Assembly (NCBI GenBank): GCA_944324095.1
Contig: CALUUY010000003.1
Location: 1 to 56,988 of the forward strand
Direction of reading: 5' to 3'
Source: an uncultured Elusimicrobiales bacterium
GTDB lineage: Bacteria; Elusimicrobiota; Elusimicrobia; Elusimicrobiales; Elusimicrobiaceae
DNA length: 56,988 bases
In this document: positions 177 through 15,326 of the stretch, piece by piece
How positions within the stretch are numbered: the first letter of the stretch is position 1
How the letters are laid out: each line of letters opens with the position of its first letter
The notes under the pieces: model-generated
The model's input: only the letters and a program-made list of their open reading frames with translations
What the model was told of the DNA's origin: nothing
Database searches by the model: none
Translations under genes and position numbers: made by a program

Positions 177-424
177 GCGCCTGGGATTAGGTATCTTAAG
201 CGCCCTAAATATTCATAAATAGCCATAAATCCTACAAATTGTAGCGGGAGGAGTAGAAATGCCATTTTAGGCCAAATTTAACGTTCAAAGGTACCTTACA
301 AAAAGTTATAAGAAGGCCCTTTTTGACCATTTTTGAGGGTTCGTTCTCATCGAGAAAGTAAAATTTCCAATAAATAACATTTGCAGAGCAAAAATTGTAA
401 AAACTTCTAAAAGAGAAAGCATAC
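177..424 (-). repeat. Left direct-repeat copy: decayed relic of a serine recombinase 3' end
   Basis: This stretch matches 11366-11616 along almost its whole length in the same orientation, with scattered substitutions and small indels. Shared blocks include GGGATTAGGTAT, CCCTAAATATTCAT, GCCCTTTTTGACCATTTTT and GGTTCGTTCTC. On the minus strand the right copy encodes the recombinase C-terminus. The left copy still encodes ERTLKNGQKGPSYNFL, but a TGA precedes that peptide in frame and a TAA ends it early, so this copy is dead. The paired copies bracket the island. Confidence 0.75.
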
Positions 425-682
425 TTGCTTATCTGGCGTCAGACATAGATAGATTAAAATGCGAAGTCTCTACAAAAAACAGAGAGAGGCCACAAACTCC
501 ATTATTTGTATTGTAGAAACACAAGTTTCTAAGCTGCAATAATAGAAAAACCAATATATGTAATAATTGAGCAGAATTTTGAAATCCTTTATTAAAACTT
601 ATGTAAAATCAAATTATAGAAATACTATTAGTTTTAAGGAATATGATGTAATTTATACAATCAGCACCTTAGGAGTGTGGCC
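425..682. other. Intergenic AT-rich stretch without a recognisable gene
   Basis: I see no convincing coding frame, RNA gene or strong hairpin here. The last 30 bases carry the AGGAG ribosome-binding site (671-675) for the next gene and AT-rich sequence that could hold its promoter, but no clear -35/-10 pair stands out. Confidence 0.4.
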
Positions 683-2017
683 ATGGAAACAGTTTGGTTA
701 TGTGTAAGTGTAGGAATATTCTTTCTTATTCTTTGGGTAAGTCAAAAACGGATTGTGTCTTTAAACACAAAACTACAAAAAGATATCGCGATATTAAAAA
801 ACCAAATAAGCGATAATATCCATAATAAGGATTGCTACATCCAAACCATCTCAACAAAAAACGTAGAATCCGCCCCAAACCAGTTCCTAAAAACAGATCA
901 AGCCTTGTCCAATATACAGAGTTTTTCCCTACAAGCTAAAAACGACAATTCTGAAATTCTTTTTTCTCGAACATCACCTAAAGACATTTCCTTGGAAAAT
1001 TATATTTCAATAGCTACAGGAGAAGTAATACAAATAACACCCCTATTACTACAAAAAGGACTTTTTACGGCCACTGTTTCTCCAGAATTATTAACAAAGT
1101 TCGCCAATGGTTCGTTCAGTACAATGGTAAAAGGAATGAATGGTAAGATTATTCAACACGCCGGGTTTGTATCCGCTACATCACGAGTATTGACCCCAGC
1201 AATATTATTCCAAATTACATCGATTATAACAGCACAATACTACCTGAACATAATCAATAATAACTTTAAAGCACTAGCTAGGAAATTAGAGGATTTGAAA
1301 AGATATGTCAAATATGATAAATGGGCAGAATTAGAAAACATTCAAGAACAAATTGTTGAAATTCAAAACAATCCATATCCACAAATAGAAGATCTGGTTT
1401 TAATAAAACAATTGGAAAGCAAATTGGGCTCTCTTCAAAAATATTATATTCATGAAATTGAATATCTATCTGCAAACGAAGAAAGGATCAAAAAAATGAC
1501 TGTATCCAAACAACTAAATGAATTGGAGCAGAAATTAAGAGAAGACGATTTTATTTTTCAAGCTAAAATGCTTTTTGGAATAGAAGAGACTCAACAAATT
1601 CTAAAATTTATATTATTATATGTAAATTACAAAATCGCCAAAGAACAAGAATCAACATCACGCCGCCAACGTGTTAATATGCTAGCAAATGAGATCTTAC
1701 AATGGAACCCTTCTGATTCTTTCAGCAACCAGCGAGGAAAGAAACTTATAGACAAGTATTATAACTATTTCTTACAACAAGCAAAGTCTGTAAATCCATT
1801 GTTTAAGTCTGGAGAAGAAAAACGTCTAAATTTTTCTAAGATCATCAATAAAATGAGGACTGAGCTCAAATCTGAACAGGATTTTAAAAACTTCCTCAAT
1901 CTTCAAAATTCGCTAAGAACGCTCTGGAGAAAGGAACAAAAAATCTTTTATACTCAAAACAAGCAAGGAGAAGATATTTTGCTTATAGAAGAAAGTGTTC
2001 TGAAAGAGCAAGAATAA
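683..2017 (+). CDS. Unknown membrane-anchored coiled-coil protein
   Basis: This 444-residue protein is not one I recognise. An N-terminal transmembrane segment (about residues 3-20, VWLCVSVGIFFLILWVS) is followed by a polar linker. Around residues 105-210 comes a region with hydrophobic stretches (ITPLLLQKGLFTATVSPELL; LTPAILFQITSIITAQYYLN) and a short Gly-rich patch (KGMNGKIIQHAGF). From about 200 to the end the protein is charged, helical and coiled-coil-like. ATG 683 is preferred to GTG 677 because AGGAG at 671-675 sits 7 nt before the ATG but only 1 nt before the GTG. It is AT-rich like the rest of the island and has no operon partner. A defence or toxin role is conceivable from location only. 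Confidence 0.7.
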   Translation: METVWLCVSVGIFFLILWVSQKRIVSLNTKLQKDIAILKNQISDNIHNKDCYIQTISTKNVESAPNQFLKTDQALSNIQSFSLQAKNDNSEILFSRTSPKDISLENYISIATGEVIQITPLLLQKGLFTATVSPELLTKFANGSFSTMVKGMNGKIIQHAGFVSATSRVLTPAILFQITSIITAQYYLNIINNNFKALARKLEDLKRYVKYDKWAELENIQEQIVEIQNNPYPQIEDLVLIKQLESKLGSLQKYYIHEIEYLSANEERIKKMTVSKQLNELEQKLREDDFIFQAKMLFGIEETQQILKFILLYVNYKIAKEQESTSRRQRVNMLANEILQWNPSDSFSNQRGKKLIDKYYNYFLQQAKSVNPLFKSGEEKRLNFSKIINKMRTELKSEQDFKNFLNLQNSLRTLWRKEQKIFYTQNKQGEDILLIEESVLKEQE

Positions 2018-2655: not shown

Positions 2656-2793
2656 ATGAAAACTAAATATTCAAACTCAAAAATCGATCCACAGAAGCTC
2701 AATTACTGGCTTATGAAAAATATTAACACTATGGAGGAATTAACTGTTATGCAACCAGCTTGTTGGGCAGAAGCAGATCATCCAAATGACTAA
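2656..2793 (+). CDS. Candidate RiPP precursor peptide (45 aa)
   Basis: A 45-codon frame is preceded by GGAG (2643-2646) at 9 nt spacing and by an extended -10 promoter, and ends 14 nt before the first radical SAM gene. The N-terminal two thirds are polar and Lys/Asn-rich (MKTKYSNSKIDPQKLNYWL), as in a leader. The C-terminal part, TVMQPACWAEADHPND, holds the only Cys and one of two Trp. Small size, position and three SPASM-type radical SAM neighbours fit a ribosomally made, modified peptide. No known RiPP family motif is recognised. The modified residues cannot be read from sequence; the Cys-Trp pair and the acidic tail are the obvious candidates. Confidence 0.65.
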   Translation: MKTKYSNSKIDPQKLNYWLMKNINTMEELTVMQPACWAEADHPND

Positions 2794-2807: not shown

Positions 2808-3833
2808 ATGTCATTAAAAAAATCGCTACGCTTCTTAAATAAAGACATATATTTCATTATAACGAGAAAATGCAATTATACCTGCCCTTTTTGTATTCGC
2901 AAAAATCTTAAAGAACAGGCCCTTGATATGTCTTTTGAACAAGGGAAAGAAGTCTTGAGCAAACTGTCTGCTTTGTTACCATCTTCCACTATTATAATTA
3001 CTGGAGGAGAACCCTTTTTGCACAAAGACTGCATAGCCTTTGTTAGAAAAGCAATGTCTCTGTTTAAAGTAGTAATACTAACATCCAATGGATCCTTCTC
3101 TTTAGAAAAGGAACAAGAGCTTCTACCTCTATTAACTAAAAACCTATGGTTACAATTATCAATAGATGGCACAGCAGCTATGCATGATAAATTAAGAGGA
3201 AAAGGCGCCTACCATCAAGTTATTGGCAAATTAAAGAATTTACAACAATATGCCAATCATATCTTACTTTCAACTACGGTTGGAATGACGAACTTACACG
3301 ATATTAAAAATTTAGCGCAAGAATTAAATAAATACCTCTTTTATCGGTGGAAAATAACTGAAGAATTAGTCATTAATCCATTAAAAACACCTCTCATTGA
3401 TGTACGAGATTGGAATAATATGGTAGATACGGTTTTACCAATATGTAAGTTTCCTGTTAGAGTACAAAAATTTTTTGATTTTCCATTAATGGATAAATTT
3501 TTAAAAACATACAATCCCCTGAAACATAAATTAATTACTAAGTGTGGTTCTGGAACTAAGACATTTTCTATCAATCCTGATTTTTCTGTTCTTGCCTGCA
3601 CTTGTATGAATGAATCCATTGGAAACATAGCGTTGGAAGATCCCCAAAAAATATTAACTAACCTAGAATCTTTTTGCAATTTAGATCCTGCTGAAAATAG
3701 CATCTGTTTTTCGTGTAAATATAAAGATATTTGTAAAGGAGGTTGCCCAGGATATTCAAAAAAAGTATTTGGGCAATTTAATATGGGAGATATCAGATGT
3801 CCTCTTGTCAAAAAATACTATGAAAAGCATTAG
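2808..3833 (+). CDS. Radical SAM/SPASM protein 1
   Basis: This 341-residue protein has the radical SAM cluster-binding motif CX3CX2C (Cys22, Cys26, Cys29) and a TGGEP motif (SAM amino-group binding) at about residue 65. A C-terminal SPASM-type Cys set follows: CGSGT, ACTC, CFSC, CKGGC and a final Cys near RCPL. SPASM proteins of this layout modify peptides by radical chemistry, using extra Fe-S clusters, and are common in RiPP clusters; they need anaerobic conditions. It follows the 45-aa peptide by 14 nt, with a poor ribosome-binding site that suggests coupling, and its 3' end overlaps the next gene by 14 nt. The reaction cannot be predicted. Confidence 0.85.
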   Translation: MSLKKSLRFLNKDIYFIITRKCNYTCPFCIRKNLKEQALDMSFEQGKEVLSKLSALLPSSTIIITGGEPFLHKDCIAFVRKAMSLFKVVILTSNGSFSLEKEQELLPLLTKNLWLQLSIDGTAAMHDKLRGKGAYHQVIGKLKNLQQYANHILLSTTVGMTNLHDIKNLAQELNKYLFYRWKITEELVINPLKTPLIDVRDWNNMVDTVLPICKFPVRVQKFFDFPLMDKFLKTYNPLKHKLITKCGSGTKTFSINPDFSVLACTCMNESIGNIALEDPQKILTNLESFCNLDPAENSICFSCKYKDICKGGCPGYSKKVFGQFNMGDIRCPLVKKYYEKH

Positions 3834-4749
3834 AGTCCTTTTAACAGAGCAATGTAATGCCAATTGTGCCTTTTGTATTAATAAAACAGCGCGAGGCTCG
3901 TCTTTGATGGATGTGCCTCGATTTAAACATATGTGTGATTATTTTAAAAGAAATCACATAACAGGAATTAAAATCATGGGGGGAGAGCCCACCACCCACC
4001 CACACTGCATAGAAATGCTTGAAATGGCCCAGCAATCATTTCAAAAAGTATCTCTATTCACTAATGCTATTAATGATACTATTCTTCAATTTAAGCCACG
4101 CAAAAATGATGGGATAAATTATAACTTCTCTTTTTATAAAACGCTTTCTAAAAAGAAACTTCTACTAGATTATCCTGGATACAGAGCTCTCGAAATAATT
4201 ATTCACAAAGACACCGATGAAAAAAATATACTAAAAAGCATCTTATCACTAACTCGAGGAGAAACAAAACGTTTTTCCATATTGCTAACCTTGAATTGTA
4301 CAGAAGATATATTTGCGCATAGAAACATTTTGGTATATAAAATAGAAAAAATTTTTTCAACTTGCAAAGAAGCAGGACTTCAGACATCGTTTGACCACAG
4401 CATCCCTATATGTTTTATATATGGCACCAAAATACCTATCTTTCGCAAAGGAGCTTTTTGTGATTTGTCCTGTGCTGGATTAATAGACGCAGATTTTAAT
4501 TTATGTTTTTGTAATCAACATCCACAAAAACTAATTAATCTATTTAATGAACAAGGAGAAATCTTACCTATTCAAATCCTTGAAAATCATCTTAAATATA
4601 TACACTTCCAAAATCAAATAACTGCTTTGAATAAAATTTGTTTAAATTGCATATTTTTCGACAGAATGTGTAATGGCGGTTGTTTTATAACGAACAGAAC
4701 CATTACCATCAACTCCATACTGCAAAACACAGCACTTCCAACAATGTAA
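3820..4749 (+). CDS. Radical SAM/SPASM protein 2
   Basis: Start ATG 3820 is chosen because the radical SAM motif then lies at the usual N-terminal place (Cys12, Cys16, Cys19 in QCNANCAFC). An upstream start at 3769 would add 17 residues encoded inside the preceding gene. The protein is 309 residues with MGGEP and several C-terminal Cys pairs (CDLSC, CFC, CLNC, CNGGC), i.e. SPASM/Twitch-like auxiliary cluster ligands. It overlaps gene 1 by 14 nt and is followed by gene 3 after 4 nt, so the three radical SAM genes are tightly coupled. It is too different from its neighbours to be a recent tandem duplicate. Confidence 0.82.
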   Translation: MKSIRVLLTEQCNANCAFCINKTARGSSLMDVPRFKHMCDYFKRNHITGIKIMGGEPTTHPHCIEMLEMAQQSFQKVSLFTNAINDTILQFKPRKNDGINYNFSFYKTLSKKKLLLDYPGYRALEIIIHKDTDEKNILKSILSLTRGETKRFSILLTLNCTEDIFAHRNILVYKIEKIFSTCKEAGLQTSFDHSIPICFIYGTKIPIFRKGAFCDLSCAGLIDADFNLCFCNQHPQKLINLFNEQGEILPIQILENHLKYIHFQNQITALNKICLNCIFFDRMCNGGCFITNRTITINSILQNTALPTM

Positions 4750-4753
4750 TTTT

Positions 4754-5902
4754 ATGAATTCTACATCAAATTATTATTTTAGTAGGAAAATAAGTATTAC
4801 TACCAACCTATTTTGCAACCTACATTGTAATTACTGTTATGAAAATAAATATTCCAATAGATCCTTTGATCTAGACAGAACAATATATAAATTAAATTGG
4901 TACTTAAATGCCCCAACTTCCAAAGGGACTGTTATAGATTTGCACGGGGGAGAACCTTTTTTAATCTTTGAAAAAATTTGTCAGCTATGTGAATCCCTTT
5001 GGAGCCAAACATTTAAAGAAAATTTTATTATCCACACCACAACAAATGGCACATTAGTACATGGCAAAATAAAGCATTGGCTTCAAAAAAATAGGTCTAA
5101 ATTTCATGTAAAACTCAGTTTAGACGGATGTGAAAAAGCACATAATTTAAATAGGTGCAACTCCTTCTCTCAAATAGACTGTGATTTCTTTGCCCAAAAT
5201 TGGCCAAAAGAATATGTTAAAGTCACGGTCAGTCCCGAGTCCCTCCCATATTTAGCTGAGAGCATTGCTTTCCTTCATACAAAATTCAAAAAAATTCAAG
5301 TAAATTTTGCAGAACTAATCGACTGGAATACACCAAATCTTCTTTCAACTTATAAGGGGCAATTACTTCAATTATCTCAATTTTATACTGAGCATCCTTA
5401 CTACCTGCGATGTTCCCTTTTTACGTTAAATTATTTGAAATTACTAAATAAGCGCCCATTACACTCAGAAAAGCTATGTTCAAATGGACGAAAAATTGCT
5501 TTTGATATCGATGGAAACGAAGAATATCCTTGCCAACTAGTTCTACCAAGTGTATGTGGAGTTAAAAAAGCACAAAAATTTCGACAAATTATGACAGATT
5601 CACATCAGGTATGTTTTATTTCAAATAAATGCAGAAAATGCCCATTACATCCTTTATGTGATACCTGTTATGGAGCTAATTTCATTGCAAGAAATGCCGT
5701 CTATAAAAGGGATTTAAATCTATGTTTAGCGCAAAAGTTAAAAATTTGGGCTATTACAAAATATGATTACAACCGAATCATTAACCAAGTTAACACTACT
5801 TTGCTCCAAGAAGACAAATGTAACAATATAATTACTATGCAAGGAATTAAAAAAATACTGCCGGCACTATTGCAGCTAGAAAGCATATTTCAAACCATAT
5901 AA
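4754..5902 (+). CDS. Radical SAM/SPASM protein 3
   Basis: A 382-residue radical SAM protein: Cys21, Cys25 and Cys28 form CX3CX2C in FCNLHCNYCYE, with an HGGEP motif near residue 57. The C-terminus has the fullest SPASM pattern of the three (LCSNG, YPCQL, KCRKCP, LCDTCYG, NLCLA). The CxxxCxxCYE plus HGGEP signature resembles the sulfatase-maturase/peptide-modifying branch. It starts 4 nt after the previous stop with no clear ribosome-binding site, so translation is probably coupled. The A-PCP gene follows 20 nt downstream. Confidence 0.85.
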   Translation: MNSTSNYYFSRKISITTNLFCNLHCNYCYENKYSNRSFDLDRTIYKLNWYLNAPTSKGTVIDLHGGEPFLIFEKICQLCESLWSQTFKENFIIHTTTNGTLVHGKIKHWLQKNRSKFHVKLSLDGCEKAHNLNRCNSFSQIDCDFFAQNWPKEYVKVTVSPESLPYLAESIAFLHTKFKKIQVNFAELIDWNTPNLLSTYKGQLLQLSQFYTEHPYYLRCSLFTLNYLKLLNKRPLHSEKLCSNGRKIAFDIDGNEEYPCQLVLPSVCGVKKAQKFRQIMTDSHQVCFISNKCRKCPLHPLCDTCYGANFIARNAVYKRDLNLCLAQKLKIWAITKYDYNRIINQVNTTLLQEDKCNNIITMQGIKKILPALLQLESIFQTI

Positions 5903-5922: not shown

Positions 5923-8856
5923 ATGCCTACAATAATTGATTGTATACGAGAACAAATTAGAATAAACCCAAACAAGTCAGCCATAATATGTGAAAATAGG
6001 CAGTATACATTTACCAACATTGGCCATATAGCTACTATTATCTCTCAACAACTCTCTGATAAAGGAATTAAAAAGGGAGATCGAGTAGCCGTTTTAGCAT
6101 CCAGATCGGAGTTGGGTGTTTTATTGGCTATTTCTATTATGAATATAGGGGCCATTTATATACCTCTAGATGAACGAACTCCTAAAAATAGATTATTAGA
6201 TATTTTCCGGTCGGCTAGAATAAAAATATTGGTTGGAGAAAAAGGTTTAATCAAACCTATACTAAACAGCAAACTCCCTTTTATCGCCATGTTTTATTCT
6301 ATTTATGATTTGCATGACTATACTTCAGCGGATGTAAGTATCTGTTTAAATAAAATAGACACTTATTCTAAAGCGGTTACAATATTTACTTCTGGTTCAA
6401 CAGGACGACCAAAGGGTATTACACACTCACATCAGGCATTATATATCTACAACAAAACTGCATTAGAAAATTCAGAATTGCATCCAGATGATAAATTAAT
6501 TGTTGCTGTTAACTATTGCTATACTTTTAGTCTCGAAATGTTTCAAGCTCTCATAAATGGAAACACGCTGTATATTGCTACAAATAAAATGCTCACAGAT
6601 CTTTCCTTGTTACACTTTTATATTAACAAACAAGAAATCACAGTCGCACTAATGCCAACACAAATAGGGCATCTATTTATTACAACAGGCAGAAAATCTC
6701 ATCTTAGGTTATTGATTATTGGAGGAGGGATATTGCCCCAATTAACTCAATTCCCGAAATATCAAATCTTAAGCGATTACGGCTGTTCAGAAGGATTATT
6801 TATAGGATCTCATAAAATTTCTCCGGATACGCATAACAATATACTAGACAAAATTAGTAAACATCTAAAGTACCAAATTGTAGATGAATTTAATCATCAA
6901 GTAGGTATAGGAAAAGTAGGAGAATTATGGATTTCTGGCCCTACTGTTGTCAGAGAATATACAGATCTTCCCCAATTAACAAATAATAAATTTGTCCACC
7001 AAAATGGAATACAATGGTATAAAACTGGAGACAAATTCAAGATTCTTCCAAATAATACTTATCAATTTGCCGGACGAACCGACAGAATGATAAAAATTGG
7101 TAATCAACGCATAGAACCATTTGAAATCGAGTTGTGTATTTCTAAAATTTCTAAAATCACTCAGTCTTTTGTCTGTTTAAAACAGGTTAATATGCGTCCT
7201 TACCTTTGTGCTTATTATATCTCAAGAAATAATAAAGAAGTTAAGGGAATACGTAAAAAATTATCAAAATACTTCCCTAATTATATGATCCCTGCTTTTT
7301 TTATAAAATTGCGGCATTTTCCGACTACGTCGAATGGAAAAATAGACCCCACACAATTGCCTACATCTCAATTATTGCGCAAAGAAAGAGCATTTCTCCC
7401 CAAAGAGGAAGAAGAAACGCTATTAAATTGTATTACTCAAGTCTTGTCCCTTAAACAAAAAATTGGACTTGACGATAATTTTACTGATATTGGAGGGAAC
7501 TCGGTAGACGCATTGTACTTAATTTCAGAATTAAGAAAACATCATATATTTATCACCCTCAAAGAACTACTAACCGCAAAAAAATTTCGAGAATTAATTC
7601 TAAAAAAAGATAAAAAACATTCCACTCGCACGAATAATTATGGAAAATTAATTTGCAGACTTCCCCCTCTTTTGAATTATTTAATTTCTCATAACTCAGC
7701 AGAATCCCTTAACAGATTTGTGATCCCAGAATTTTTTTGTTGCCCGCCAACAACTACTTTAAAGCATTTAGAAAAAGTTGTCAGAAATTTATTAAAAAGA
7801 CACGATATGTTAAGAGCTCTATTAAAAGAGGATGGCTTTCATATACAGGATGAAAAAGCCTCTTCATTATTTTGTCTGAAAGAAAAATGCTTAGATGGCA
7901 ACTCCAACGAAAATAATAACCAACTCAAACTTTTAATTGAAGAATTATATAAAAGTATCGATGTGCATAACGGGCCATTATTTGCTGTTTTCCTTGTTCG
8001 TGGCAAAAATTCTGCCTACATTTTAACAGCATGTAGTCATTTGATCTCTGATAATTTTTCCAAAAACATTTTGAAACAAGACTTTATCACCATTTTTTGT
8101 AATCTAATGGCAGATAAATCGACTCTACCTCTTCCAAAGATTAGCACCCCTTACTCGTATCATGCACATACACCAAGCTATCTTCACCTTTCCAAACATA
8201 AACCTTCCAATGTCTCTTTAAGGAAATATGACACTCTATCTAGCAAATTGGATAACAATGATTATCACAAAGTCTGTCTTTTATTAAAAAACAAAGACAG
8301 TGATTTAGTTTCATGTATGTTAATTCTGCTAATAAAAAGCTGGCATGAAATATTAGGAACCCAAAATTTTAATTTCATATTATTTCGCCATGGAAGAGAT
8401 CTCCTTAAAAACAGTCAAAATGGTCATATATCATTTGACCATACTGTTGGCTTTTTCCCTGTATGTCATAAAATTCAATTTTCATTTGCCCCAGAAATCT
8501 CTTTAATATCCAATATTAGATTAATCCATAATTCAATACAAGAAGCTAAAAAAAAGAATGAATATTTTGATTTTTTACAGGAAGACCAAACGCCTCTTTT
8601 CGGATTTAATTATCTTGGAGAAACTAGAGATTTTATAGATTATAAGAATCCCTTTTTATCACGACCCATAGATATTCCTAAGGGGATATATACACCTAAT
8701 AATTTAGACATGGGGGCCCCTTTTATGATATTTATGCATAAAATCAGCGACAAAATTATATTGCAAATTCGATATAACAAACAAATGTATAGAAGATCTT
8801 TTATAACCGCTCTTTTTAAAAGAATAAAATCTAATATTTCTGATATAAACCATTAA
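5923..8856 (+). CDS. NRPS-like protein: adenylation, carrier, epimerase/condensation-like domains
   Basis: This 977-residue protein is laid out A-PCP-E, like stand-alone initiation modules such as GrsA or TycA. Adenylation domain (about 1-490): TSGSTGRPKG (156-165), DYGCSEG, YKTGD, GRTDRMIKIG, and NGK with catalytic-type Lys473. The A4 region (YCYTFSLEMF, 198-207) lacks the Asp that normally holds the substrate alpha-amino group. Carrier domain: DIGGNS with the pantetheine Ser527. Residues about 590-977 are a condensation-superfamily domain of epimerisation type: SHLISDN (705-711) in place of HHxxxDG, keeping His706 and Asp710; HGRD (823-826); TVGFF; FNYLG (895-899). The epimerase Glu of EGHGRE appears to be Phe. 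No thioesterase or further module is present. Clustering with radical SAM genes and a small peptide suggests the activated unit is used on, or together with, the ribosomal peptide. Confidence 0.85.
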   Translation: MPTIIDCIREQIRINPNKSAIICENRQYTFTNIGHIATIISQQLSDKGIKKGDRVAVLASRSELGVLLAISIMNIGAIYIPLDERTPKNRLLDIFRSARIKILVGEKGLIKPILNSKLPFIAMFYSIYDLHDYTSADVSICLNKIDTYSKAVTIFTSGSTGRPKGITHSHQALYIYNKTALENSELHPDDKLIVAVNYCYTFSLEMFQALINGNTLYIATNKMLTDLSLLHFYINKQEITVALMPTQIGHLFITTGRKSHLRLLIIGGGILPQLTQFPKYQILSDYGCSEGLFIGSHKISPDTHNNILDKISKHLKYQIVDEFNHQVGIGKVGELWISGPTVVREYTDLPQLTNNKFVHQNGIQWYKTGDKFKILPNNTYQFAGRTDRMIKIGNQRIEPFEIELCISKISKITQSFVCLKQVNMRPYLCAYYISRNNKEVKGIRKKLSKYFPNYMIPAFFIKLRHFPTTSNGKIDPTQLPTSQLLRKERAFLPKEEEETLLNCITQVLSLKQKIGLDDNFTDIGGNSVDALYLISELRKHHIFITLKELLTAKKFRELILKKDKKHSTRTNNYGKLICRLPPLLNYLISHNSAESLNRFVIPEFFCCPPTTTLKHLEKVVRNLLKRHDMLRALLKEDGFHIQDEKASSLFCLKEKCLDGNSNENNNQLKLLIEELYKSIDVHNGPLFAVFLVRGKNSAYILTACSHLISDNFSKNILKQDFITIFCNLMADKSTLPLPKISTPYSYHAHTPSYLHLSKHKPSNVSLRKYDTLSSKLDNNDYHKVCLLLKNKDSDLVSCMLILLIKSWHEILGTQNFNFILFRHGRDLLKNSQNGHISFDHTVGFFPVCHKIQFSFAPEISLISNIRLIHNSIQEAKKKNEYFDFLQEDQTPLFGFNYLGETRDFIDYKNPFLSRPIDIPKGIYTPNNLDMGAPFMIFMHKISDKIILQIRYNKQMYRRSFITALFKRIKSNISDINH

Positions 8857-9562: not shown

Positions 9563-11317
9563 ATGGCAAATATACAAGAAGAAATAAAAATTTTAAGGAA
9601 ATTACATAAAAAATTAGAAGAAGTGTCTGACAATACTCTACTTCCCTTACTCGCATATAAATATATTTACATTCAAGATCCAGAAGACCTCAGGTATAGT
9701 GATTTTAAAAAAGTAATAGTCGATGGGCCTAACGATGGAGGAATTGATGCAATCTTCAATCATCCAGAAGACGATCGATTAATACTTCTTCAATCAAAAA
9801 ATTATTCCCAGGATATTTCCGCCAAAGACACGATTCTCAATGCTTTTCGCAAAATAAACGCTACTTTAAAAGACTTGAAAAATCTTCAAACTGCTAACTA
9901 TAATAAAAAGTTAAGAAGTGCTTGGAGCAATCTCTATGATGAAGACAAGTCCATAGAAGTCGTATTTTTGACCTCAGCCAACATAACAAAAGAGCTCATA
10001 ACTACAATCAAAAACAAACTAGACCAAGAAGAAATGCCGTTCCAAGCGACCATTTACACTAAACATGATCTAGAATTCTTTATTGATAATTCGGAAAATT
10101 CTTCTCCTTGGGTGCAATCGGCAACGTTGGATATAGACAAAAATAATAAATGTTTATGTCCCAATAATGATAATGGGGTAATTGTAAATATAACTGCTAC
10201 TAGTCTGAAACGAATCTATGATATTTACAACATCAAACTTTTCCAGCAAAATTTTAGATATTTTATTAAAGATAAAAAAGTGGATCCTAAAATTGTAGAA
10301 AGCATACAAAAAAACAGCAATCTTTTTTGGTTTTTAAATAATGGGATTATTATTGCCTGTAAAGATTTTCGCTTAGATGGAGATAAACTCCGGTTGGAAG
10401 ATTTTTCTATTATCAATGGATGCCAAACCACATCCCTTATTGGCGAACACAACTTTTCTAACGACTTTTATTTAACCTGCAAAGTAGTAAAAGCTCCCTC
10501 CCCCGAAGAACAAGATGCGTTCGTCAGCAAAATAGCAGAAGCCTCTAATAGGCAAAAAGCTATCAAACCTAGGGATTTAAAATCGACAGATAAAGCTATG
10601 CGAAAGCTGCAAATGGATTTGAAAAAAGAGATACCAGCCCCTTCTATATTCTTAGAAATTCGCAGAGGAGAAAAAGCTCCGCGCAATGCTGAAAAACTAA
10701 AAAATGACCTCTATGGACAGCTCGTTTTGTCTTTTATGTTACAACAACCTGCTAAAGCACGGAATAGTAGCCGCACTATGTTTGATTCTCCCAGCCTTTA
10801 TAGTGCCATATTTAAGAGAAAAAACTTTGACAAAGAAGCCATTGTAGATTTATGGGACTTATATAAAAGTTTTATGGACTACAAAGATAAAAAACTTAAG
10901 GATGGTAATTTCTCTATCGAAGAAGCCGAAACAATGATTGAATATATCCATTTCTTTGTGCTTGCCATAGCTGGTTTAATTGTAAAAGTTAAAAGAGGCC
11001 TGTTTGACATTACTGCAAAAGATTGTTTTTCCTCTCCAGAAGGAGAAAAGAAATTACAAGAAGATAATATACAAGGCCGTTTTTTAAATAAAGAAATAAT
11101 GGACCATGACACTATTTTATTTGGTTTCTTTGATTGTATTTTGGAAGACCTAACTAATATTTTCAAAGATCATAAGAATAGTATCGGTACGGAAGCAAAT
11201 TTTACAAAAGTTACGGAGCATTACCCTAAATTAGTGCTTCCTTTTATAAAGGATCGTTTCTTTATAAATGATTACCAAAAGAAATTAAGGAAGGACTTCT
11301 TAAACTTATTCAAATAG
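9563..11317 (+). CDS. AIPR-family (abortive infection phage resistance) protein
   Basis: A 584-residue protein whose centre carries the AIPR signature: FWFLNNGIIIAC, then IINGCQTTSL. AIPR proteins (Pfam AIPR) occur in phage-defence loci and are linked to abortive infection or restriction. The N-terminal 150 residues look like a restriction-endonuclease-type fold: NDGGIDAIF with Asp62, then LILLQSKNY with Gln77 and Lys79, matching D-(E/Q)-x-K. That would make it a nuclease fused to an AIPR module. The start has AAGGG upstream. It is a single-gene unit between the MATE remnant and the truncated recombinase, in typical accessory DNA. The target is unknown. Confidence 0.8.
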   Translation: MANIQEEIKILRKLHKKLEEVSDNTLLPLLAYKYIYIQDPEDLRYSDFKKVIVDGPNDGGIDAIFNHPEDDRLILLQSKNYSQDISAKDTILNAFRKINATLKDLKNLQTANYNKKLRSAWSNLYDEDKSIEVVFLTSANITKELITTIKNKLDQEEMPFQATIYTKHDLEFFIDNSENSSPWVQSATLDIDKNNKCLCPNNDNGVIVNITATSLKRIYDIYNIKLFQQNFRYFIKDKKVDPKIVESIQKNSNLFWFLNNGIIIACKDFRLDGDKLRLEDFSIINGCQTTSLIGEHNFSNDFYLTCKVVKAPSPEEQDAFVSKIAEASNRQKAIKPRDLKSTDKAMRKLQMDLKKEIPAPSIFLEIRRGEKAPRNAEKLKNDLYGQLVLSFMLQQPAKARNSSRTMFDSPSLYSAIFKRKNFDKEAIVDLWDLYKSFMDYKDKKLKDGNFSIEEAETMIEYIHFFVLAIAGLIVKVKRGLFDITAKDCFSSPEGEKKLQEDNIQGRFLNKEIMDHDTILFGFFDCILEDLTNIFKDHKNSIGTEANFTKVTEHYPKLVLPFIKDRFFINDYQKKLRKDFLNLFK

Positions 11318-11365: not shown

Positions 11366-11616
11366 GGCGCTTGGGATTAGGTATCCCAAGTGCCCTAAAT
11401 ATTCATCAATAACCACAAACCCTAAAGTTGTAGCGGACGGGCCCAAAATGCCATTTTTAGGCCGAATTTAATACCTCAAGTCGCCTTGCAAAAAGTTATA
11501 GGAAGGGCCTTTTTGACCATTTTTAAGGGTTCGTTCTCGTCGGGAAAGCAAAATATGCCAATAAATAACATTGGTGGAGAAAAAGTTGTAAAAATATTCT
11601 AAAAGCGAACCCCATA
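11366..11616 (-). repeat. Right direct-repeat copy covering the recombinase 3' end
   Basis: The partner of 177-424. It begins with a strong stem-loop (GGGCGCTTGGG / CCCAAGTGCCC, about 11365-11395) just past the recombinase stop, then covers the last codons of the recombinase gene. The stem is weakened in the left copy. The stem-loop has no T-run on the minus strand, so a simple terminator is less likely than a structured end or recombination-associated site. Confidence 0.7.
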
Positions 11617-12487
11617 TTAAATGCTTAGAACTTTTAGGGGATTTTCCCTTAATTTCTAAGCATTTTTTATTTCCTTCCGCAAAAATATTGAACGGTTCGC
11701 GGTATTTTGGGTAAATTTTGTGTCCGTTCAATACAAAATCGCTGGCTATATGGCGCAAAAGCGGCTTTTTTTCTGAGAGCGGAGCCTCGCGATAGATAGT
11801 ACCCATATTACATACCAACTTTAAAATATCCGTGCTTTTTTGCCGTACGGCGTCCGGCTGTATAGTTTGGGCTTGTATTTGCTGTGTAAGCTCGGCAATA
11901 GCCGTTTTTAAGCGTTCTTCCGTGCGTTTTATAAACTCCGCTGGATAGCCCTTTTCCCAGCCCTCGTCATATAACCGTTCTAATTCCGTTTGCTTTTTGC
12001 TTAGTTCCGCTTTAAGCCCGCCCGTCGCCTTGTTTTGGGCCTTTTCCAAGTGTTTTAAGCGTATTTCTATGGCTTTTTGTAGCCACGACACTACTCCCGG
12101 CTTTAAACTAATAGCATCTATCAATGCCGAAAACGCCTCATCCAGCTGATGTTCCCGAATGTATTTTTCGTGCGGATGTTGCCCTTTAGAAAAGGAACAG
12201 CGGTAATACATATATTTCTTTTTAGCAAAATCCCCCACAATAGAACAGCCGCAATCTTTGCAATGAAGCAGATTAGAAAAAGGATAATTGCGGGTAGTCA
12301 CGCGGGGACGCCCAAAAAGGGAGAGAGCCTTATTGGCCCTCTCAAATAACTCTTTTGTGATGAGCGGTTCGTGAATGCCCGGATAGAGTTTCTTGCCCCA
12401 ACGAAAAGTGCCATAATACATCGGGTTATGAAGCACCCGATACAGGGCTCTTTTACACCTTCTACCAGTACAAAAACTCTCCCGCAT
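11468..12487 (-). pseudogene. Large serine recombinase, 5'-truncated (catalytic domain missing)
   Basis: The 339-residue frame begins inside the recombinase domain (RVLHNPMYYGTFRWG). It continues with the zinc ribbon (LHCKDCGC ... YRC), a long coiled-coil region (about 150-210) and a C-terminal tail. These are the DNA-binding parts of large serine integrases/transposases. The N-terminal resolvase domain with the nucleophilic Ser, about 150 residues or more, is absent: the frame starts only about 20 nt after the stop of the neighbouring host gene. The protein could bind DNA but not recombine it. The truncation point is a likely island/host junction. Confidence 0.8.
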
Positions 12488-12508: not shown

Positions 12509-13816
12509 TTATTTTGCCCAAGGCAACACCCAGGCATAATCAAAACCAGTCTGTTTGGCTAGTTCGCGCGCATCCGGCCCACGCCAATAATGTATAGTGG
12601 GAAAGTGAAAGCGCATATCATAAAATGAAAAAGACTCTTTCCATACGCCCGAAAGGACTTCGTCCCCTATCGGAAAAACATAAGAGAGAGCTACAACAGC
12701 CGGGTTCTCGTTAGCAAAAAATTTAGGCAAAGAATACGGATACACCCACGAAGTGTGGCCCAATCCCGCATACACTACAAACAAAGTATCGGGGTCAGTC
12801 TTTCTAATTTGCCGCATTTTACTTTCCATTACCCGCACCCAGGATTGATTACGAAGCATTATTCCACGCAAAGACGCTTCCGCTTTAAACAGGGGCCCTT
12901 GTTCTTTAGAAATCATTTGGTATAAAGCCCGGTCTTCCAACGGATATACTTCTATACCGCCTTGTATCAGAGAATCAAATAATGGCTTGGCATAATCTAC
13001 CACCAATTGGGGGTCTTGTTCCACAAGTTTACCCAACTTTTCTTTGGATACACGGCGGTAATAACTAGCAGTAGTCGTCCCTTCGGGTGCAGCAAGAGCA
13101 GGCAAATCAATAAATTCCGTAAACAATACGATACGGCGCTTAGGATTTAAGTGTTTAAGTTCGTGCAAAAAATCCCCAACCGCTGAGTGAATGCTATCCA
13201 CATAATGCATTTCCCCCAAAATAATCATCTTTTGAGAGGACAACCTCTCGGCCAATTTAGCGGCTACATCTTTGCCGCCAACCACACCTAATTCAGGTTG
13301 GCCCTGTCCCGGGCGGTTTTTAAGCCAGTTTACTTTTTCTATAAAATGTTTGGTTGCTTGTAAAAGCAATTGATTGTTTTTTACCGCAAACTCAGACGGA
13401 ATAGTCATCGGTTGATATAAAGACTGAAAAATGCTATTGGTTGCTATGGCCGGCTCGCTGTCCAACACGCGCTTAATTTCCGCCAGCAGGGCATCGTTTT
13501 TAGCTTTTGTGGCGGCATCTGCCCGTTGGGACAAGTAAGCTTTAGTTGGTGTGTTAAAATCTGTTTGAAAAACTTTTACCTGCCCTTGTTGCTTAAACCG
13601 GTTTTGATGATGTTTCAGCCAAGATTTACCGGCTTTGCGTTGTAAATCTTGCGTTTGTTTAGCAGACAAAAGCCCGGCAGAAGCGCGCAGAGACGACTGG
13701 GAGGCATTTTTGCCTCCTTTGGTTATTATACGGCTAACAGATGAAATATTTTTTTGCGCATACCCGCAAGGCACGGCTAGCAACCCAAACAACAACAAGC
13801 TAATAATTTTATTCAT
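12509..13816 (-). CDS. ChaN/TIKI-like exported protein (paralogue 1)
   Basis: The start at 13816 gives a clean signal peptide (MNKIISLLLFGLLAVPCGYA-Q) and has GGTGGAG upstream; the longer frame from 13846 adds 10 unlikely residues. The mature protein of about 415 residues has the ChaN/TIKI/EreA-superfamily pattern: ILGEMHY (GExH), RRIVLFTEF, and near the end YAGLGHTSW (GxxH). Members include haem-binding lipoproteins and metal-dependent proteases; the function here is not known. Two paralogues lie at 14010-15326 (divergent neighbour) and 37206-38303. Its stop is about 20 nt from the truncated recombinase, so it marks the right edge of conserved chromosome. Confidence 0.75.
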   Translation of the reverse strand: MNKIISLLLFGLLAVPCGYAQKNISSVSRIITKGGKNASQSSLRASAGLLSAKQTQDLQRKAGKSWLKHHQNRFKQQGQVKVFQTDFNTPTKAYLSQRADAATKAKNDALLAEIKRVLDSEPAIATNSIFQSLYQPMTIPSEFAVKNNQLLLQATKHFIEKVNWLKNRPGQGQPELGVVGGKDVAAKLAERLSSQKMIILGEMHYVDSIHSAVGDFLHELKHLNPKRRIVLFTEFIDLPALAAPEGTTTASYYRRVSKEKLGKLVEQDPQLVVDYAKPLFDSLIQGGIEVYPLEDRALYQMISKEQGPLFKAEASLRGIMLRNQSWVRVMESKMRQIRKTDPDTLFVVYAGLGHTSWVYPYSLPKFFANENPAVVALSYVFPIGDEVLSGVWKESFSFYDMRFHFPTIHYWRGPDARELAKQTGFDYAWVLPWAK

Positions 13817-13918
13817 AACTATCATTCTCCACCCAAAATAAGACAAAAACTCTTACTATACAATTTAAAAAATTTACACTTTTTAAAACAGGGTCTTTAA
13901 ACCCATTTTATTTTCTAT

Positions 13919-13946: not shown

Positions 13947-14009
13947 CTACCCTTATTATTAGGGCCAAAGGCTCTTTTGGACTTACCTATAAAAATTTAT
14001 ATTGGTATT

Positions 14010-15326
14010 ATGAGATTTTTAGCTTTTATTTTTTTACTCCTGTTAAGTGCGCCCTTCCATGCGCAAAATCTTCCGCGCGTTTTGACAAAAAACATCACTC
14101 AACAGCAACTTAAACAAACCCTTAAGCAAAAGGCCACAGCAACCAAAAATTTCGTTACATCCTTTCAAAAGCGAGCTTCTTTCTCTAAAACGGGCCAGCG
14201 CAACGCCCCGTCCAACGGCGTATGGCAAGAATTATGGAAAGACCCTCCCCACCGCTTGGAAGAACAAGAATATCCGCTAGACCACAATCCGTTCAGTGAT
14301 TTTAACATCACGTTGCGCCAAATAGAAGCGTTAAAAGAGCAGTATAATGTTTATTACTCGGAAAAGTCCCTTTACCATATGCTGGAACATTCCTACCACC
14401 CCTCATCTTTTGCGCATCATAATAACAAAATGGTTTTACGGGCACTTATCAACCACATTAAAAGAATTCAATGGTTAAACCAATACCCCAATAAAGGCCG
14501 TAACGCTCTTAAGCAGGATAAAGGGGAAAACCCTATTTTCCAACTGGCAAGGCATCTGCAACAAGAAAAGATGATTTTTCTGGGAGAATACCATTTTAAC
14601 CCGGAAATTCAGCAATTTGTCAGCGGTTTAATCTTAGCCCTTAAAGCGCAACAGCCCAAACGGAGAATAGTCGTTTTCACAGAATTTCTTCCGCTTTCCC
14701 CGCGCAAACTGCCGGACGGGCAAACGCTAGAAACCTATTACCGCCGGATTAACCAAAAAGATATGGCCCCTATTTCTTGGATGGACGTATCTTCTTATAC
14801 ATACGCCCAAAATACGTTTAATGAATTATTAAAAAACCGGGTAGAGACATTCCCGCTGGAAGACAAACAACACGTGCAATTAATGTCCCAAGAATACAAT
14901 TCCGAACAGTGTGAGCTTCCCCTATCAGTATCTATACGAAACAAAACCTGGGCCCGCATAATAGAAAACAAAATGGCCCAAATTCGCCAAACGGATCCCG
15001 ATGCTTTGTTTGTGGTGTATGCGGGGCTGGGCCACGTTTCTTGGATTTACCCGTATGCCTTGCCTAAATTTTTTGCTAAAGAAAACCCCTCAGTGGTGTC
15101 TGTTATTCTAAAAGAGCACCTAAAACTAAATTTTTTAACCAATATTTGGGGCCCTAAAGATCCATTTTTTAAATTTCCTAAAACAAATACGGTTTTTTAT
15201 TGGGCCGGCCCCGATGCCCGCCGCTTGGCTACAAATACAGGGTTTGATTATATGGTACCCCTCAGCAAGAACAACTGGCAACGCTTTAAACAATTCTTTA
15301 ATGAATTGGCCGCTATGTTAGATTAA
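14010..15326 (+). CDS. ChaN/TIKI-like exported protein (paralogue 2)
   Basis: The ATG at 14010 begins a signal peptide (MRFLAFIFLLLLSAPFHA-Q); an upstream TTG at 13977 would put charged residues before it. The 438-residue protein shares the family landmarks with its divergent neighbour: FLGEYHF (GExH), RRIVVFTEF, KTWARIIENKM, and YAGLGHVSW. Both also share a YWAGPDAR/YWRGPDAR motif near the end. It is predicted to be periplasmic. The ribosome-binding site is weak. The pair clearly arose by duplication and then diverged; the ligand or substrate is unknown. Confidence 0.75.
   Translation: MRFLAFIFLLLLSAPFHAQNLPRVLTKNITQQQLKQTLKQKATATKNFVTSFQKRASFSKTGQRNAPSNGVWQELWKDPPHRLEEQEYPLDHNPFSDFNITLRQIEALKEQYNVYYSEKSLYHMLEHSYHPSSFAHHNNKMVLRALINHIKRIQWLNQYPNKGRNALKQDKGENPIFQLARHLQQEKMIFLGEYHFNPEIQQFVSGLILALKAQQPKRRIVVFTEFLPLSPRKLPDGQTLETYYRRINQKDMAPISWMDVSSYTYAQNTFNELLKNRVETFPLEDKQHVQLMSQEYNSEQCELPLSVSIRNKTWARIIENKMAQIRQTDPDALFVVYAGLGHVSWIYPYALPKFFAKENPSVVSVILKEHLKLNFLTNIWGPKDPFFKFPKTNTVFYWAGPDARRLATNTGFDYMVPLSKNNWQRFKQFFNELAAMLD

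Follow-up and report, generated by a model that had tools for sequence, protein, structure and literature searches.

RiPP and NRPS pathways usually stay separate, and radical SAM RiPP clusters normally do without an NRPS module. On the NRPS side, the initiation modules GrsA and TycA consist of adenylation (A), carrier (PCP) and epimerization (E) domains in the order A-PCP-E, with Glu892 of GrsA serving as a catalytic residue. Elsewhere, discrete A, PCP and C sets such as SgcC1-C2-C5 and VioO/VioM decorate scaffolds that are made separately, and the X domains of glycopeptide synthetases recruit oxidases. PEARL pathways include NRPS-PKS clusters with a PEARL (PMC11212132), and OaaC of gut bacteria is a stand-alone condensation domain that, independently of any assembly line, transfers an acyl group from a carrier to a small amine in NRPS-like fashion (PMC13142362).

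The locus described here shares features with several of these systems and differs from each. It lies in a window of 56,988 nucleotides, the whole stretch of DNA that was analysed, from contig CALUUY010000003.1 of an uncultured Elusimicrobiales bacterium (assembly GCA_944324095.1). In architecture its NRPS module is nearest to GrsA and TycA, with which it shares domain order and folds; in contrast to both, it lacks the Asp that binds the substrate amine and the Glu of the E domain, has Ser for His at position 705, is some 25 residues shorter in its E-derived domain (hereafter E*) and has no partner module in sight. In setting it is nearest to the radical SAM/SPASM RiPP clusters (PapB, CXXX-repeat and SkfB-like), which likewise combine a small precursor-like ORF with SPASM-type genes, but here they are joined by an NRPS module, neither a peptidase nor an exporter is recognised on the island, and the maturases score under curated cutoffs. 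PEARL pathways resemble the arrangement proposed below in bringing two different amide-forming machineries to one pathway, yet they employ a lantibiotic-dehydratase homologue, whereas here an A-PCP-E* module is present and no such homologue was recognised. OaaC, for its part, is starter-C-like and separate, while the domain here is E-derived and fused to A-PCP.

Architecture of the module

The gene at 5,923-8,856 on the forward strand is an intact ORF that starts with an ATG at 5,923 and continues for 977 codons without a stop or frameshift. Its 977-aa product is a free-standing NRPS module of the adenylation - carrier - epimerization type (A-PCP-E*), with matches to PF00501 (1.4e-44), PF00550 (8.8e-7) and PF00668 (3.2e-18), and its structural model has a mean pLDDT of 79.8. 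Within the carrier domain (7,417-7,596, forward strand; PF00550), Ser527 (7,501-7,503) sits in an IGGNS motif and is invariant in alignments with comparison modules; a PPTase-family gene present in the same genome could charge the carrier. No partner NRPS module was seen on the island that carries the gene. A sequence-only reading of the same DNA had singled out several motifs, all of which are found at the residues it gave: YCYTFSLEMF at 198-207, Lys473, S705-H706-L-I-S-D710-N711, F821-R-H823-G-R825-D826 and F895-N-Y-L-G899. In keeping with that reading, family-wide alignments place neither an Asp at the amine site nor a Glu in the epimerase site.

An adenylation pocket without its aspartate

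Judged by its model, the A domain is by fold an ordinary NRPS A domain, aligning with GrsA PheA at Z 46.5 (rmsd 2.1 over 383), a fold-level match; the AMP-binding fold, the core motifs and the A10 lysine are all present. That lysine, Lys473 (7,339-7,341, forward strand; placed by A-domain alignment), corresponds to Lys517 in GrsA numbering, and A3, A7 and most core residues are kept alongside it. The earlier claim that the core motifs and Lys473 survive is therefore borne out by alignment, although A8 is atypical, reading KIGN against the typical KIRG.

What the domain lacks is the amine-binding Asp of alpha-amino-acid A domains (GrsA Asp235). Its A4 motif, YCYTFSLEMF (6,514-6,543, forward strand), is one residue short between its two anchors: counted from the upstream DK anchor the amine-Asp site falls on Thr201 (6,523-6,525), counted from the EMF anchor it falls on Tyr200 (6,520-6,522), and an alignment with 236 comparison A domains cut from fetched loci itself placed Ser203 in that column. 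Under no placement tried does an Asp occupy the site. Among the comparison domains, by contrast, Asp fills the column in 227 of 236 (the remainder being His in seven, Val in one and Ser in one), which upholds the earlier description of an Asp-free A4, and in a 38-row alignment of modules all 37 other rows have Asp opposite Thr201.

In A domains that activate keto acids, the place of Asp235 is usually taken by an aliphatic residue (PMC10949194), so that loss of this Asp is known to accompany acids without an alpha-amine, a link that does not point to any one acid. The loss is common to those domains and to ours, but here the replacement is Thr or Tyr, the pocket is otherwise unmatched and specificity is not readable from it. 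Since the amine-binding Asp is absent, an atypical substrate seems likely, and to this extent the unusual substrate proposed from sequence stands, with a non-alpha-amino acid and a peptide carboxylate both still candidates; the interpretation made from sequence is, as a whole, partly supported. A ten-residue substrate code was dropped because the one-residue shift in A4 leaves two of its positions ambiguous; by motif alignment, the equivalent of GrsA position 322 appears to be Asp285, which we offer as a lead only.

A RiPP-like neighbourhood

The NRPS gene ends a tight, operon-like run, after three radical SAM genes. All lie on one strand: the first and second radical SAM genes overlap by 11 nt, the second and third are 4 nt apart, and the NRPS gene follows after a further 20 nt. 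Radical SAM protein 1 (2,808-3,833, forward strand; 341 aa; PF04055 2.3e-15) carries CxxxCxxC and SPASM-type cysteines, scores 73 bits as SkfB-like (below the cutoff of 300) and matches the solved SkfB at 2e-15. Protein 2 (3,823-4,749, forward strand; 308 aa) matches PF04055 at 1.2e-9 and has a weak SPASM domain match (0.0031), and protein 3 (4,754-5,902, forward strand; 382 aa) is PapB/CXXX-maturase-like, below the curated cutoffs. Two of the three pass the PF04055 cutoff; the remaining one scores 28.1 bits where 29.5 is required, but has CxxxCxxC and SPASM-type cysteines. Scores against the PapB ranthipeptide maturase model NF047865 were 88 and 70 bits, short of its curated cutoff of 340 bits. 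The locus thus contains radical SAM/SPASM maturases of the kind expected in a RiPP cluster, and the three proteins resemble peptide maturases (SkfB, PapB, CXXX-repeat), all under curated cutoffs.

The first radical SAM gene is preceded, at a distance of 14 nt, by a precursor-like ORF of 45 aa (2,656-2,793, forward strand; MKTKYSNSKIDPQKLNYWLMKNINTMEELTVMQPACWAEADHPND), which has a suitably spaced GGAG in front of it. When the spacer was shuffled, 103 of 5000 sequences (2%) gave an ATG-initiated ORF of at least that length together with a comparable ribosome-binding site, which makes the ORF likely but not certain. No family match and no homologue were found for this candidate precursor gene. 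It is this neighbourhood that suggests co-transcription and a link between the NRPS module and the precursor; scans for promoters and terminators gave no excess over shuffles. Searches of the island with Pfam and NCBIfam recognised no leader-recognition (RRE) domain, no peptidase and no exporter.

The best relative of radical SAM 3 in a plasmid collection is a protein of Phocaeicola massiliensis (34% identity over 324 columns). On that plasmid (L201, 1,830-4,843) the radical SAM gene is followed by two very similar 47-aa Cys-rich precursor-like ORFs. Both carry CGCSGDCGSNW close to the C-terminus, and between them lies a 440-aa ORF that we take to be peptidase-like; the 45-aa ORF described here shows no similarity to these precursor-like ORFs. 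A human-gut contig filed as phage and looking like Bacteroidota DNA (L203, 5,871-11,179) has two related radical SAM genes flanking a 62-aa Cys-rich ORF, followed by ClpP-like and ABC transporter genes. The neighbourhoods of these relatives support a putative peptide-maturase role for radical SAM 3.

The surrounding island

The whole gene set is bracketed by a direct repeat of about 227 bp, whose left copy (177-403, forward strand) pairs with a right copy (11,367-11,593, forward strand) at a spacing of 11,190 (repeat search; self-match 82%). GC content is 29-33% over roughly the first 10 kb and 45-52% past 16 kb (about 30% for the block against about 48% for the contig). Also on the island are a gene for a 446-aa protein with an N-terminal hydrophobic segment and no family match (677-2,017, forward strand) and, at the right end, an AIPR-family gene (9,563-11,317, forward strand; PF10592 1.7e-28). 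A large serine recombinase gene at 11,468-12,487 on the reverse strand is truncated, its N-terminal catalytic domain missing, and is a 96% match to an intact 502-aa gene of a sister species; such intact copies occur in other species of the genus. In a sister species, DNA 96% identical to the AIPR gene and the right end belongs to an island with otherwise type I R-M-like cargo, and the repeat or recombinase family carries other cargo (restriction-type genes, AIPR) in sister species. What emerges looks like a family of serine-recombinase islands within the genus.

The radical SAM and NRPS genes themselves were found in none of the relatives searched. Because of this absence, the low GC, the bounding repeats and the recombinase, the set was most likely acquired as cargo, on an element that may no longer be self-mobile, as its recombinase lacks the N-terminal catalytic domain. 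A chimeric contig was considered, but the recombinase remnant, the repeats on either side and an AIPR end 96% identical to a sister-species island argue for insertion into this genome, an assembly join keeping some probability. Since both repeat copies are present, the failure to recognise a peptidase or exporter gene on the island probably reflects its real content rather than an effect of the contig edge. Adjoining the island, two divergently oriented genes with weak ChaN-like matches, at 12,509-13,846 and 13,977-15,326, encode proteins of about 445 aa, a segment of which recurs across many genomes of the genus.

The search for counterparts

Nothing with this architecture turned up in the collections searched. 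Single-protein scans of genome contigs and viral contigs gave no close relatives; at E 1e-5, a search of 341 genomes from the phylum matched E* nowhere outside its own genome, and radical SAM 1 had no match at 1e-25 in 295 genomes. An alignment scan of genome contigs gave no counterpart among the matches listed and may have missed distant or rare relatives; a motif search found nearby radical SAM genes at 0 of 79 NRPS loci in genomes. The open-access literature likewise yielded no RiPP operon pairing radical SAM enzymes with an A-PCP-E module, though reports elsewhere are possible.

Several candidates were considered and set aside. Three marine viral contigs (L150, L155 and L158) have two radical SAM genes near an AMP-binding gene, in a layout unlike the one here. 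The NRPS gene of a sister species (L003, with L004-L006 alike by match) encodes an ordinary C-A-PCP-TE protein with the Asp kept, and is hence not a counterpart. Matches to radical SAM 3 from the same order (L016, L017) belong to clusters that combine His-Xaa-Ser repeats with numerous radical SAM genes and in which no NRPS was seen. Genomes of that order (L118, 9,469-19,501; L119, 2,952-9,955) encode His-Xaa-Ser (GSHGSH) repeat peptides amid many radical SAM genes, together with a gene bearing an SGGKDS motif (ATP-pyrophosphatase-like).

An epimerization domain that has lost its glutamate

Sequence, tree and fold show that the C-terminal domain (residues 566-977; 7,618-8,853, forward strand) descends from an epimerization domain. 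Its best sequence matches among solved structures are E domains, and a weak match to TIGR01720 (E 0.0014) fits this ancestry. In the tree it falls inside the E clade with 47 E domains (SH-aLRT 100), on an end branch of 3.76 that leaves its exact place unsure. The closest solved structures are TycB3-E, TycA-E and GrsA PCP-E; the model, a confident fold (pTM 0.86), matches TycB3-E at Z 32.7 (rmsd 3.2 over 384), TycA PCP-E at 32.6 and TycA-E at 31.8, against about 28-30 for C-type domains, the alignment behind it consisting of E domains only, so that the fold evidence leans towards E. As a condensation domain (LCL or DCL) it does not qualify, for it reads SHLISDN in place of a complete HHxxxDG and lies outside the C clade.

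The residue that precedes [GSA]HGR is Glu in 52 of 53 comparison E domains and Gln in the other, these domains having been chosen by FNYLG alone to avoid circularity; here it is Phe821 (codon 8,383-8,385, forward strand), the equivalent of GrsA Glu892 when counted along the alignment with PDB 5isw. Phe does therefore stand where the Glu of EGHGRE is expected, as had been suspected, and the companion claim that His706/Asp710, HGRD and FNYLG persist agrees with the residue positions. E* retains the second His and the Asp of HHxxxDG (H706, D710), the Arg of HGR (R825) and the Tyr of FNYLG (Y897), and has lost conserved positions in H705S, W714K, R715N, E821F, R840H, W844F and T846P, besides being about 25 residues shorter than typical E domains. 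Because the paired Glu is absent while the His and the fold are kept, ordinary epimerase chemistry appears unlikely. Of the changed reaction once proposed for this epimerase-type fold, that much holds, for a domain that may or may not be active.

Proposed function and its rivals

The reading we prefer, tentatively, is a RiPP-type pathway served by one free-standing NRPS module, in which an acid without a free alpha-amine is activated and E* performs acyl transfer rather than epimerization. Up to three SPASM-type radical SAM enzymes would cross-link the precursor of about 45 aa or modify it in some other way, as gene order and family suggest. The A domain, given its missing Asp, would adenylate a carboxylic acid lacking a free alpha-amine at the usual position, and the kept motifs suggest that this acid would be loaded on Ser527 of the carrier. 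E* would most likely act as a His-dependent (HxxxD) acyl-transfer or condensation domain using His706, with the ribosomal peptide, or else some other amine or alcohol, accepting the acyl group from the carrier. The module would then be a tailoring unit, like the discrete A, PCP and C sets that work on separately made scaffolds. The stricter version, a true RiPP-NRPS hybrid in which a former epimerase turned acyl-transfer domain links the carrier-bound acid covalently to a ribosomal peptide modified by radical SAM enzymes, we regard as rather doubtful.

This proposal is favoured by the operon geometry, the three peptide-maturase-type radical SAM proteins and the precursor-like ORF with its ribosome-binding site, and by the nearest relatives found for radical SAM 3, whose clusters are of gut Bacteroidota type and include short Cys-rich precursor-like ORFs. 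Also in its favour are the absence of the A4 Asp and the E-domain Glu against strong conservation, the retention of His, Asp, carrier Ser and Lys, placement in the E clade, E domains as the closest solved folds, and the PPTase-family gene. Against the proposal stand the absence of a homologue of this architecture in the collections searched and of any recognised peptidase, exporter or RRE domain on the island, and the loss of the first His of HHxxxDG and of other conserved positions on a long branch (3.76), which fits decay too.

Decay is the strongest rival, though we think it improbable: the NRPS gene would have arrived with the island and no longer be under full selection, both domains being inactive. 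The many conserved E-domain positions lost, the very long branch, the stand-alone single module, the truncated recombinase of the element and the lack of homologues that could show constraint are all as this rival would have it. It fits less well with 977 codons free of stops and frameshifts, or with the retention of A3, A7, the A10 Lys, the carrier Ser, H706, D710, HGR and FNYLG. Moreover, E* keeps 24 of the 41 columns that are at least 95% conserved in E domains and about 10% of variable columns, so that it looks constrained overall with specific active-site positions lost; this pattern and the confident fold (pTM 0.86) argue, indirectly since homologues are absent, that E* is still under constraint.

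Less probable again is a docking platform, in which a non-catalytic E*, much like the glycopeptide X domain, would bring the radical SAM proteins to a substrate on the carrier. Cross-linking-type enzymes are indeed encoded next to the NRPS gene, and glycopeptide NRPSs are described as having inactive E domains as well as a terminal X* domain that is probably inactive (PMC1894796). Against this, HxxxD is kept in E*, the tree makes E* E-like rather than C-like, and the interaction itself would have to be presumed.

We give little credence to a third rival, in which the modified ribosomal peptide is itself the substrate: the A domain would activate its C-terminal carboxylate and so tether the peptide to the carrier, where E* would modify or release it. 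The absent Asp would suit a substrate without a free alpha-amine, and a precursor-like ORF lies in the same gene run, but the papers searched describe no NRPS A domain that acts in this way, and we know of none. Weakest of all is continued epimerisation of a substrate on the carrier, through a one-base mechanism or a base in another position. It could draw on the kept fold, FNYLG, His and Arg of HGR, but is very improbable with Phe in place of a Glu found in 52 of 53 E domains and with neighbouring positions altered.

Implications

The operon context, which formed no part of the sequence-only reading, recasts an odd NRPS pocket as an NRPS module in a RiPP-type operon. E* is an epimerization domain whose fold, His and Arg are kept and whose Glu is lost, and it bears on how function changes within the condensation superfamily. 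The two missing residues and the gene order give direct predictions, and a ribosomal peptide, three radical SAM enzymes and an altered NRPS module standing side by side would make a small natural test case for the coupling of these chemistries.
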